A program made the position numbers and the translations under genes. Under the pieces are notes generated by a model. That model was not told the origin of the DNA. It worked only from the letters and a program-made list of their open reading frames with translations, and searched no databases. Below, piece by piece: positions 29,101 to 41,100 of a stretch of DNA of 64,000 bases (within the stretch, counting starts at the first letter, position 1; every line of letters starts with the position of its first letter). The stretch covers positions 16,956,932 through 17,020,931 of the forward strand of contig OZ020254.1 of the NCBI GenBank assembly GCA_963971285.1, read 5' to 3'. The stretch is from Astropecten irregularis (taxonomy: Eukaryota; Echinodermata; Asteroidea; Paxillosida; Astropectinidae).

Positions 29101-32100
29101 GTGACCTTTATCCAATCATGTATTATACCTTTAATGTATGTCCATGGTGTTACGGCAAATCACTATATTATGTACTTGCCTCGCCTTCAATCCCACTTAT
29201 TTGTACATTTGTCCTACAGCATTGCCGTGTATGATCTTGGCGGTGGTACCTTCGATATCTCAGTCCTAGAGATTCAGAAAGGAGTGTTTGAGGTCAAATC
29301 TACAAATGGTGATACGTTACTGGGCGGAGAGGACTTTGATAATGAGCTCCTGAATCACCTAGTCCAAGAATTCAAGAGAGATGTAAGTTATAACGTCTTT
29401 TCCTTCTTGATAAATCTCTTCTTAAAGGTACAGTACAGGATTGGTAACATACCCAAACAGAAATGTTCACAGATTTACATAGAACTTTCAGGGTATGAAG
29501 ATGGTGCTGGTAGAAACATACCATTAAAATATTTCCGCCAGAAATGGTGTAGTTAACCAGAAAAATGTCAAAAAAGACCGAAAACAGTTTTGATTTTGGG
29601 ATAAGATCAAAACCATTCTTTATGTTTTATAAGAAAAATTAATTCAGGTTTTCACTATTTTCTTGTGATTCAGATGTCCGATTGATCAAAATTTTCACAA
29701 GTTCATCATTTTATATGCGTGTTTGATCAGACAAAGTGTGAGTGCTGTTCTGTGACCTTTACCAATCATGTATTATACCTTAAACGTTTTCAAGAATGTA
29801 GCCGTTGAATTTATTCATGCCATGATGTAAAATCAATTTTCCCTCAGCCGTATTGTCTTCATGTATTTGGAGAATGGGGACTTAATTTTTTCTGAGCATG
29901 AAATAAATTAAAAATTCAAGTATTTAGTAATTTAGGTAATTGCTGTTATTAATTCACAGTGTTTTAAGTTTAATTTTGCTTTTTAAACAGTACATGCTTT
30001 ACTGTCCAGTGTTTCTAACCAGGGGTCAATTTCATATCATAGAGCTGCTTAAGCTCCAAAAACCTTGGTAAAAAGCTCAGCAAACAATGGTTGAATACCA
30101 GTCAAAAACAGAACATGAAAATTTGGTCAGCAATCCTGTTTGATTGAGGAAGACTTTTCTTGCTTAATCAAATTTTGTGATTAAGCAGCTCTATGAAATT
30201 GACCCCTGGGCACCCATCATTTTAACAAAGAAGGTCAGGCAGCGTTCTATTTTCCCATGACTCAGATGTCCAATGGAGCTCAAATCTTCACAGGTTTATT
30301 ATTTAATCATCAAATAACCACAAGCATGTATTATTTCATATACATGCTGGATCAGACAAAGTGTGTGTGCTGCTCTGTGACCTTTACCAATCATGTATTA
30401 TACCTTATACCTCTACAGTTGTTGATTTAGGATTATACCGAGTTTGAGGATGTAGCTGATGTTTTCTTCTTTGTCGTCCTGTTATCCCACAGCAAGGAAT
30501 TGATCTAACGAAGGACAACATGGCATTACAACGACTGAGAGAAGCTGCTGAGAAGGCCAAGATTGAATTATCATCCTCCCTACAGGTAAACCTTAACCCT
30601 TAACACACATGGATTTGTTTTATTTCGGTATAAAACAAATTACAAATTGCCTGTATTTCTTCATAAGTTATTATTTTCTTTCTAAGTTTTCAAGAACGTA
30701 GCCGTTGAATTTATTCATGCCGTGATGTAAAATCAATTTTCCCTCAGCCGTATTGTCTTCATGTATTTGGAGAATGGGGACTTCAATTTTTCTGAGCATG
30801 AAATAATTTTTAGTTAATGTGGTAATTTTATAATAGTTCATGCGTAAAAAAAAGTTTAAGTTATTGGCACAGACATTGTTTTGCATGAAGAAAATTACAA
30901 AAATTTTTATTTTAAAACCGTGCAATCAAAAGAGTCATTGAAAAATGAACGAACAAATTGACCGGAGTGGGATATGAACCACCGAAATACCATACTGGCG
31001 CTTTTACCAAACTGAGCTATCCAGCCCTATATTGGTTGTGTTCCTTAGAGTGACTTGTCTTTATTCATTTGGCTCAGTTGGTAAGAGTGCCAGCACGGTA
31101 TTCCGGTAGTTGCTGGTTCGAATCCAGCTCCAGTAAATTTTTGTTCACTTTTCGATGTTTTAAAATTAATCCAGTCAGTTTCCCTTGTGGTAATATTTGA
31201 TGATTAAATCAAAGAGTGGTCAAAGGCATGACAACTAATAAGGATATTACATGGGCAATTCACCTGTTAAGTGACTTTGACCTATTCCTTGATGAATCAT
31301 TCTTGAAAGACTCCAATTTAGAAATGTCTTATTGTAATCAGCAATTATACCACTTATATTCCATGAAATTCATGCAAATATGCAAAAAAAGAGGTAACTT
31401 TGTTACAAAATGTCCCAAAACAGTGGAAATGCCCATATCTATGGAGATATTTATGTTCATCAATGTGTTAATCACTTAATGCTCATCTCTTCTCTCTTTA
31501 TGTCCTATCTATCTTCCCCTTATCCAGACTGACATCAATCTACCCTACCTAACCATGGATGCATCGGGCCCCAAACACATGAACATGAAGCTGACTAGAG
31601 CCAAGTTTGAATCCATCGTAGACGGTTTGATCAAGAGAACCATGGGCCCTTGCAAGAAGGCTATTCAGGATGCCGAGGTGTCCAGCTCTGAAATCAAGGA
31701 GGTCCTGCTGGTGGGTGGAATGACCCGGATGCCTAAGGTAAGTCTCCTTTGTAAGACTTTGATGTCCTAGATGGAAGGTGGTCCAAGAATTGACCTATTA
31801 CTAGGACATTAGACCACAGAAATGTTGAGTGTAGCATAAAAACAGATTAAGCCCTCAAGATTGTGTGTAATTGTATAATGCAACAATCCCCTCAGTGTAC
31901 CTCAAAATGTATAATTGATGGAAAGGAAAGGAAAGGGTTATTCATCGCGGTGGTTATAAACAAGGAAAAAAGTGATCAAAGTCATGCGATGTCATGTTGC
32001 TGGTAGCAACATTTCGGCTACAAGAACCCAAGTTCTTGCTGGTTATGTAACACATTCGAGTGACCCATACTACATCCGCAGATCAGCACGTTACAGGTGA

Positions 32101-38100: not shown

Positions 38101-41100
38101 GATGCGCCGCCCGGCCCAGCATGGTCCGCGGGTACTATAACGAACGTACAACGGGTACGTAACGTAAGCGAAGACGGTACAGTTTACATGTACATGTACG
38201 TGTAACATGTAGTGTACAATAATTGTACATGTACATGAAGTTTAAGTACATACGTGCGGTACTTCCAGCCTCAAAAAGATCGTGTAAAACGACGGAAAAT
38301 TGCAGAAATTCAGGCTGCAGCAGCCGAAACAAGAAATTTGGCAACATTTTCAAGCAGTGAGTATATTAGCGATAGGATGAGCAGAAAGTTAGACCTATTT
38401 ATTTCTGGTTTGAATTTGAAATTAGCTGACGCACGGTCACCAAATGCGAGTGAGAAATATTATGGTGAGACTAGAACATGACGCGTACGGTGGGACGGGC
38501 GAGTAAAATCCTCTTCGGATTCCAGGCTGGATGGCGAGAAAAATGAATAGACAAACTAAGATAACCTTCCCAAAAACACTATTTATGTTCAATAATGTCG
38601 TGCATATGATGCCGTTATAATTATGGAAGGCAAATCCCCTTCCGAAACTCAAGTTTGCACGTGTGGCCGTGGCTTTCTGAACGTAGAGAATCTTGAGTAC
38701 CGCGTGCATAACACCATGCTTTCGTTCAATGACAGTCCGACCACGTGCACTGTACTGAGCGCGTAGTCTGGTTTCGGCTCCAGCGATCCTTTAATTAAGT
38801 GCTATGTATGACAACTTGGAGGCGGAATTCAGACATGGCTCAGCTCTCAACATGATTGCTGCACGGGTTTCGACGTACTTTATGCGTCCCCGCAAAGTAG
38901 GCCTATGTATACGATCGAATGTTATTTTCTCCGTTCAACTATAGCTGTTTCGGTCTTCCAAAACAGCTCTGTGTTTTTTTATGTTAATTTCTTTTAATTG
39001 TCAACGAGAAAGAAATATAAAAAGTCGTACTACTGGGGTTCTGTACATGTGTACGTGTACATGTACATGTACATATAAATGCACATGTGTATGCACAAGT
39101 ATGATTTCATTGGGACATCGGGAGCCTAGCTCACCGCAATTCCCGACGGCCGGTTTTCAAACAAAACAAAACAAAACACCGATATGACTCAGAAAGTCTA
39201 TAATTTTGACATACATTTAATGATGACCATTACGGAAAAAGGATTATATCCTTCAAGAGTTAACTTATTGGATACAAATTATGATGAAATTCAATCTCAG
39301 GTGTGGAAAACTTGGGTAGCATATCTGAAAAGTGAGTTTTACAGGGTTTTTTACCTACAAATTGTACACTTCCAATATAGCGGCAGCCATCTTGCTCAAA
39401 ACGCCCTCTGTTGGTTCTATAGAGTTGTGCACAAATTATGGTCATCAGTGGAATTCTTTCCAAAGAAGGCTGTATTGGTTTACGGTCACTCTATAAAACT
39501 TCAGTTTTCAATTTTTGCCTTGGTGCCCTACAGCTAAAAAGTGTTTGGCCTTCGTGCCCTTCCCAATGGCCTTGGTGCCCCCAAAATTTGAAAATTACCA
39601 AGGCCATTTGGCCTTGCCCTCACCAAACCTTATTTCCAGCCCTGCTGATACCTGGGGCCGATTTCACTAACGCTTTGTATGATTGCTAAAGCCCAAATCC
39701 ATTGCTAAACAGAAAATTGCTACGCAAAGTAGTGATCAATTTTCCATTAAGTGATGGATTTGGGCATAAGCAATGATCACAAAGCGTTAGTGAAATCGGC
39801 CCCTGGGGCCAATTTCATAGAGCTGCTTGATCGCCAAAACTTTGCTTAAGCACCAAAACAATGGTAAATAAAATTAGTATGCCAGCCAAAAACTCATTGT
39901 GAATGTTATGCTCAGCAAACAAGTCAAAAGCAGTAAAAAAAACATCACATGAACATTTGGTTGGTAAGCCTGTTTGATCAAGGAAGAGTTTTCATGCTTA
40001 GGCAATTTTTGTGCTTAAGCAGCTCTATGAAGTTGGCCCTTGGTTGAGAACAGTGAACATTGCTTATAACTTAAATTGTCTAACTTGTTATGCTTGGCAG
40101 AGCAAGCAAACTCAATCGCATCAAATTTAAATTAATTACACGTTGCATAATTTTCGTCTTTATTATTTCAATCTAAATTTAAATCTTGAGAATGTAGCCG
40201 TAGAATTTATTCATGCCATGATGTAAAATCAATTTTCCCTCAGCCGTATTGTCTTCATGTATTTGGAGAATGGGGACTTTAATTTTTCTGAGCATGAATT
40301 AAATTTGTCGAAAATGTCAACATGTTCTGATAATTATCAGGGCAAGACGATTTACTGAAAGAAGGAAGTCAACTTGTCCTGGTAGTTTATCTTGCAAAGA
40401 GGACTTACTTAAACTGAGATTAATTTTTGGGATTAGTCAACTTTTTTAGATTTGCTTTGTTGACTTGGTCAGAAAAATTATTAAGATATGTCGACTTCTT
40501 GTTTTCTTTAAAAGTACAGCGCTCCAAGATTGCTATTCCAGTTATCCTGATAACCACATAATTTACCTAGCTAAGTCGACATTTTTAGTGGTAAAAGTTG
40601 TTTAGTCTCAATAATTATCGCAAGAAGACAACCATATGTGAAACACAAAAGTCAACTTATCCTGATAATTTATTTGGCCAAGTCAACGAAGTACAAGATA
40701 AGTTGTTTTATCTTGATAATTTACCCAAATTTTAGTAAGTCAGTTTTGCAAGGTTAAATATCAGGACAAGTCAACTTCCTTCTTTCATTAAGTCCTCTTG
40801 ATAATTATCAAAACATTGTCAATTTCGTCGTTTTCACTACGATCTTGCCCGGACCAGTTATCTGGTTAAGTTGACTTTTAGGGCTTAATAAGTCGACATG
40901 ACTAGATACATTATGTGGTTATCTGCTTAAAGTGAAATGGCACTCGTCGAGCTCCGTATAAAAGTCATCTTTGGTATTAGACAGTTGTATTGTGCAGATA
41001 ATTAGAAAATCTTTGAAATGCATCTCTTTGTTTTGAATTGTAGATGGCATCAGAAAGAGACCAAAGCGGGGGAAGTGGTAGCAGCGACAGCAGCAGCAGT

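Follow-up and report, generated by a model that had tools for sequence, protein, structure and literature searches.

A probable family of box C/D small nucleolar RNAs, locally duplicated in introns of HSPA9 in the sea star Astropecten irregularis

The element considered here is an 89-nucleotide (nt) unit that recurs in introns of HSPA9 within a 64,000-nt stretch of the Astropecten irregularis genome (contig OZ020254.1 of assembly GCA_963971285.1, hereafter C18, positions 16956932-17020931). This stretch is referred to as the window, and coordinates given without a contig name are counted from its first letter. Judged from its sequence, the unit very probably represents a real, locally duplicated, intron-encoded family of box C/D small nucleolar RNAs (snoRNAs). 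The family consists of four near-identical copies, labeled c1 to c4, and a diverged paralogue, c5 (Table 1).

Copies, host introns and motif specificity

The original prediction described three near-identical 89-nt units, starting at 29814, 30714 and 40210, that share a 7-base-pair (bp) terminal stem, a C box of the form RTGATGT and a D box CTGA. Re-reading the sequence bears out this description. The units differ pairwise by only a few nucleotides over the 89 positions (c1-c2, 3; c1-c3, 2; c2-c3, 2), and all 7 bp of the stem TTCATGC/GCATGAA are paired in each. The C boxes read ATGATGT, GTGATGT and ATGATGT, and the change of the first base from A to G in c2 retains a purine, as had been stated. 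A DNA search of the 475.7-Mb genome then yields a total of four near-identical copies, all located on C18 between 16.987 and 17.061 Mb, a span of 74 kb. The additional copy, c4, lies about 40 kb past the window. The paralogue c5 is found by a motif scan of the window and, when used as a DNA query against the genome, matches nothing except itself.

HSPA9 is encoded on the plus strand, with exons from 26903 to 37780 located by tblastn using an HSPA9 query protein and a last exon, beginning MASERD, read at 41044. With the host exons placed in this way and the splice sites read, the units are confirmed to be intronic and on the sense strand of HSPA9. The intron containing c4 (C18:17061003-17059645) runs between two BTRC-like exons and carries the splice signals GTAAGA and CTTAG; identity between the exons around c4 and human BTRC reaches 100%. 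Because c4 sits on the minus strand in an intron of this BTRC/FBXW11-like gene, it is also in sense orientation. Sense orientation and an intronic location are found for 5/5 copies, four in HSPA9 and one in the BTRC/FBXW11-like gene. The original prediction named many dispersed copies outside HSPA9 as the outcome to be feared, and these are not found: c4 is the single near-identical copy outside the gene.

The combination of boxes and stem is specific in both the window and the genome. A scan of the window for a C box RTGATG, a CTGA located 45-160 nt downstream and a terminal stem of at least 5 bp returns four matches on the plus strand and none on the minus strand, and the same scan of 60 shuffled windows, one strand each, gives a mean of 0.17 and a maximum of 1. 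At the genome level, the pattern CATGCNRTGATGN{45,75}CTGAGCATG (stem CATGC, C box, 45-75 nt, CTGA and GCATG) occurs at eight places, and its reversed control at none. These eight places are c1 to c5 and three closely similar sequences on C16 in which the C, D', C' and D boxes are all clear, so every place in the genome that matches the pattern looks like a C/D snoRNA. Set beside the box C/D definition of RUGAUGA, CUGA and a terminal stem, all five units show RTGATG, CTGA and a stem of 7-8 bp.

Several comparisons connect c5 with the other copies. When its interior, stripped of stem and boxes, is aligned to c1, the score reaches a z of 5.2 and is equaled by 0/5000 dinucleotide shuffles. A covariance model built from c1-c4 recovers c5 at 25.6 bits (rough E 0.0017 in 114 kb), and this is the only match of the model up to E 5 besides c1-c4 themselves. 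The stem core CATGC/GCATG is common to all five, and at one pair of the 7-bp stem both bases of c5 differ from those of c1-c4, a change reached by 120/500 shuffles. Rfam returns 15 rows for the c5 stretch, of which the best six are all sense C/D snoRNAs and all below cut-off, including SNORD16 (25.8 bits, cut-off 45), SNORD14 (23.8, cut-off 64) and snoR26 (22.9, cut-off 47). On these comparisons, c5 is read as an older, diverged member of the family that was missed at first reading.

Table 1. Coordinates of the copies and their parts. Positions are those of the window unless a contig is named.
Feature	Position	Strand	Description
c1, box C/D unit, 89 nt	29814-29902	+	HSPA9 intron 29383-30492
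c1, stem TTCATGC	29814-29820		5' arm
c1, C box ATGATGT	29822-29828
c1, putative D' guide TCAATTTTCC	29833-29842	+	Target assignment weak
c1, putative D' box CTCA	29843-29846	+	Box chosen by the authors
c1, D box CTGA	29892-29895
c1, stem GCATGAA	29896-29902		3' arm
c1 with extended terminal stem	29808-29909	+	AATTTA (29808-29813) with TAAATT (29904-29909), A29903 bulged; about 13 bp in total, pairing by eye
5' extension	29792-29813	+	Alike in c1-c4; its 3' part is the external stem arm
c2, box C/D unit, 89 nt	30714-30802	+	C box GTGATGT at 30722, D box at 30792; HSPA9 intron 30586-31527
c3, box C/D unit, 89 nt	40210-40298	+	C box ATGATGT at 40218, D box at 40288; last HSPA9 intron, 37781-41043
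c4, fourth near-identical copy	C18:17060505-17060621	-	Found by genome-wide DNA search
c5, diverged paralogue	33426-33513	+	HSPA9 intron 33372-34266
c5, 8-bp stem			CATCATGC/GCATGATG
c5, C box GTGATGC	33435-33441
c5, D box CTGA	33502-33505

Conservation of the unit and the extended stem

The units are more alike than the DNA around them. In the c3-c4 comparison, there are differences at 2/89 positions of the unit and at 49/330 ungapped sites of the flank, with an additional 59 gap columns (Fisher p 0.00043). The corresponding differences are 3/89 against 10/56 for c2-c4 (p 0.0053) and 2/89 against 7/31 for c2-c3 (p 0.0011), the three pairs not being independent of each other. The unit is near-constant while the c3-c4 flank drifts, and therefore either selection or gene conversion holds it, two causes that the flank contrast cannot separate. 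This ambiguity favors one alternative, namely that the copies are a recent duplication of non-functional intron DNA and are alike because of their youth or through conversion, which can keep units alike in copies that lie as close together as these do. The c3/c4 contrast and the diverged c5, which keeps the stem, the boxes and pieces of the interior along with the two-sided stem change (weak by itself), make such an origin very improbable.

A second alternative is that the C/D-like motifs are accidental features of a short mobile element of miniature or retroposed type. Dispersed short repeats are abundant in the window and some lie directly beside units, c3 and c4 share an upstream repeat, and the 3' flank differs in each copy. 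This explanation is largely refuted by the copy number, as only four near-identical copies are found in 475.7 Mb, a count to which the stem-and-box pattern leads independently, and all of them fall within 74 kb, in sense orientation and in introns. The unit is also conserved above its own flanks, and terminal repeats of its own are not seen on reading by eye, without a dedicated test. The earlier statement that inverted ends and target duplications are missing from the units agrees with the sequence to the extent of this same reading by eye. A mobile element is very improbable.

The boundaries of the similarity are further informative about the structure of the proposed snoRNA. Similarity had been claimed to stop right after the 3' stem. 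Instead, in each of the six pairwise comparisons among c1-c4 it continues beyond the 7-bp 3' arm for about 7 nt, ending at +86 to +88 relative to the C-box T, and this limit coincides with the end of an extended terminal stem. Equivalent extensions are present in the other copies, interrupted by an internal loop in c2 and a bulge in c3, reaching about 20 bp with a bulge in c4 and 12 bp in c5. On the 5' side, the upstream similarity of about 30 nt that was originally described is present and high in all four near-identical copies, and it also extends in more diverged form to 55-390 nt in pairs of c2, c3 and c4, with c3 and c4 sharing about 380 nt of upstream flank. Part of this stretch, for which a longer RNA or an aid to processing had been suggested, forms one arm of the external stem, and the rest of the 5' extension is possibly a processing element.

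Comparison with known snoRNAs

The same host gene carries SNORD63 in vertebrates, and the original prediction hinted at a link. Chicken U63 is placed in HSPA9 intron 11 and guides 28S via its D' side (PMC2653536), and a tunicate study annotates SNORD63 by homology (PMC8704543), so it may predate vertebrates. The units resemble SNORD63 in being box C/D sequences hosted by an HSPA9 intron, with a D'-side guide in the chicken RNA. The lengths differ, with 68 given for the human RNA in a table of PMC2642994, 91 nt for chicken in PMC2653536 and 89 nt for the units.

The hinted link is not supported by a search for the U63 antisense element. For the A4541 region of 28S, neither a complementary 10-mer nor a 12-mer with one mismatch occurs in HSPA9 (26800-41200), and the one 10-mer and two overlapping 12-mers found elsewhere in the window are not at a unit. 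Rfam scans of the window give no SNORD63 row, the presence of SNORD63 in the release used not having been checked directly. Genome-wide, the rigid pattern TGATGAN{3,30}TGTCTCACGN{25,55}CTGA returns four rows at three places with no terminal stem by eye, and an Rfam scan of one of the three places finds no snoRNA. That the units are the echinoderm orthologue of SNORD63, as the common host and the tunicate annotation (PMC8704543) would allow, is therefore highly unlikely given the missing target complement and the missing Rfam row. The common host gene looks like a coincidence.

U14 (SNORD14, RF00016) provides a parallel in genomic arrangement. At least six U14 genes are located on C20 within 5.7 kb, scoring 72.3-74.8 bits against a cut-off of 64 (119/7292 candidates scored). 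In this array (C20:15548501-15558400), the units are near-identical and the downstream flanks unlike by eye, and the upstream flanks, also by eye, are clearly alike in copies 4 and 5, partly so in copy 6 and unlike in others. Like the HSPA9 family, U14 is a box C/D RNA with several near-identical copies in one array of the same genome. The vertebrate host of U14 is an HSP70-family gene; at the C20 array, an HSPA8 query protein gives no match. The units differ from U14 in that they do not have its guide CCTTGGATGT before the D box, and the true U14 genes are those on C20. Assignment of the units to U14 is rejected, as the guide to 18S ACATCCAAGG beside box D is absent and only c5, at 23.8 bits, obtains a row for this model, with none for c1-c4. 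A snoZ101-like match (37.5 bits, cut-off 44) is also observed among the U14 genes.

The three near-identical C/D-like RNAs on C16 (2364888-2366560, minus strand) share with the units the stem core CATGC/GCATG and the presence of three local copies. They differ in having clear D' and C' boxes and a D' guide that matches 18S, pairing with GGATTGACAGAT over 12 bp. For two of them the SNORD110 model scores 33 bits, short of its cut-off of 64; the third has no Rfam row up to E 0.01. Frames near these RNAs resemble La/SSB by eye. Finally, snoR38 (RF00213) is the best sub-threshold match of c1, a similarity carried by the stem and boxes, whereas the guide region of the model is gapped and unmatched. 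Provided that the below-threshold matches are due to chance, the family has no Rfam name; it is not U14 and, on the limited searches above, not SNORD63. No title or abstract naming this snoRNA family is found in the literature searched, which excludes most subscription journals, and a 2011 article notes that sea star snoRNA data were not public at that time (PMC3247247).

Guide target, proposed biogenesis and significance

Several observations count against identification of the units as C/D snoRNAs that guide methylation. The last base of the C box is T in c1-c4 and C in c5, a departure from the consensus A. No Rfam family is assigned to the units at cut-off, the best match of c1 being the 22.6 bits of snoR38 against a cut-off of 45, and the whole-window scan gives only three tRNA-like matches above cut-off. 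The folding energies do not stand out (z -0.24 to -1.90), which is common for C/D RNAs. The distance to the 3' splice site is large in every copy (590-860 nt; c1 590, c2 725, c3 745, c4 860, c5 753). The 22-nt 5' extension, with differences at 2/22, 1/22 and 2/22 positions in c3-c4, c2-c4 and c2-c3, offers too few sites to group it with either the unit or the flank. Two more observations of this kind concern the guide. The D'-anchored duplex of the family with 28S GGAAAGTTGA, which has 10 bp with one G-U pair, is equaled by 6/150 shuffles, with the putative D' box CTCA picked by hand and several anchors tried without correction. Further, an unanchored search with the whole c1 unit yields no duplex that stands out from shuffles, the best being reached by 14/40; its targets were the 18S and 5.8S of the assembly and, from outside it, 28S, 18S, 5.8S, U1, U2, U4, U5 and U6 sequences.

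Complementarity to ribosomal RNA (rRNA) or small nuclear RNA (snRNA) immediately before the D box had been suggested as a check, and it does not identify a target. D-anchored duplexes reach 10 bp in c1, 9 in c2, 9 in c3 and 7 in c4, equaled by 5, 19, 17 and 112 of 150 shuffles, respectively, and they are not common to the copies. Within the unit, variation among the copies is greatest just ahead of the D box, which makes a D-side guide unlikely and favors the D' side. The anchored duplexes of c5 are unremarkable, with 8 bp on either side (95/150 shuffles for D', 53/150 for D). As positive controls for the anchored procedure, the U14 D guide pairs over 14 bp in the 18S of the assembly and the C16 D' guide over its 12 bp, each with 0/150 shuffles as good; on the D side of the C16 RNA, a 6-bp duplex is equaled by 147/150. 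This test covered rRNA, with 18S taken from the assembly, and its coverage of 28S is incomplete because the assembly contains 28S only in fragments. The candidate 28S stretch is present in one such fragment. The D' pairing is a lead, with low odds for any stated target. Overall, the predicted locally duplicated guide RNA family is strongly supported as a duplicated C/D family, through the sense intronic position of every copy, retention of the unit relative to its flanks, the specific motif and the similarly arranged U14 array; as for the guide role, no rRNA match clearly beats shuffles.

External stems help snoRNAs located far from the branch point to assemble. Expression of the proposed RNA would begin with transcription and splicing of the HSPA9 pre-mRNA or, for c4, that of the BTRC/FBXW11-like gene. 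Boxes C and D and the terminal stem would form a kink-turn that binds proteins of the 15.5K/NOP58 type, and exonucleases would trim the intron back to a ribonucleoprotein-bound RNA of about 90 nt. At distances of 590-860 nt from the 3' splice site, the task of bringing C and D together probably falls to the extended external stem, which spans about 12-20 bp and is interrupted by a bulge (c1, c3, c4) or an internal loop (c2). The mature RNA would most likely guide 2'-O-methylation via its D' side. The copies may have spread by local duplication inside HSPA9 and between HSPA9 and the gene 63-74 kb away, with four kept near-identical through selection or conversion and c5 being older. The external stem described in PMC10932220 concerns Rnt1p cleavage and has no bearing on these units. 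A more complete scheme, in which an echinoderm family unrelated to SNORD63 settled independently in HSPA9, placed a sense copy in a second gene, guides 28S 2'-O-methylation from its D' side (target base: the third A within GGGAAAG of GUGAGGGAAAGUUGAAAAG) and uses the extended external stem in place of the usual branch-point distance, is unlikely as a whole. Methylation at this 28S position is not known in vertebrates or yeast.

Several other loci were observed during the analysis. The tRNA-like matches in the window (33987-34058, minus; 51435-51507, plus; 51597-51654, plus) score 32.7-34.2 bits against a cut-off of 29 and are probably tRNA-derived short repeats. A histone 3' stem-loop match at 57089-57133 (minus, 31.9 bits, cut-off 34) may indicate a replication-dependent histone gene or may be due to chance. 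An 18S-5.8S stretch at C23:7270349-7272714 is followed by 28S that, by eye, breaks off after about 100 nt. Some positions that are normally invariant in animal 18S are changed here, and this may not be the expressed gene. Other 28S fragments are located on C22, C10, C14, C16, C15 and C8, and a scan of viral contigs for the 28S core gives 0 matches. COX1 on contig C168 reads best with the echinoderm mitochondrial code (code 9), in which AAA is Asn and ATA is Ile, and codes 4, 5 and 13 leave it open too. Amphioxus was rejected as the source on this reading and on a search that returned no lancelet fluorescent-protein match, a negative of little weight by itself. At C131:32162-33484, a COX1 of bacterial look is open without a changed code, and the contig may be a symbiont or contaminant. 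Three near-identical copies of an exon-like frame with a spacing of about 1.15 kb at C18:17025206-17027818 resemble, by eye, the frame at window positions 49398-49664; these are either a tandem duplication of a membrane-protein exon or a matter of assembly.

If the units are snoRNAs, as appears very probable, the locus would show the birth of snoRNA genes in good resolution: HSPA9 holds copies of two ages, the near-identical c1-c3 and the diverged c5, another copy occupies a second host, and the flanks show the unit staying constant while its surroundings drift. If HSPA9 carries different snoRNAs from one animal to another, this would point to it as a favorable host.

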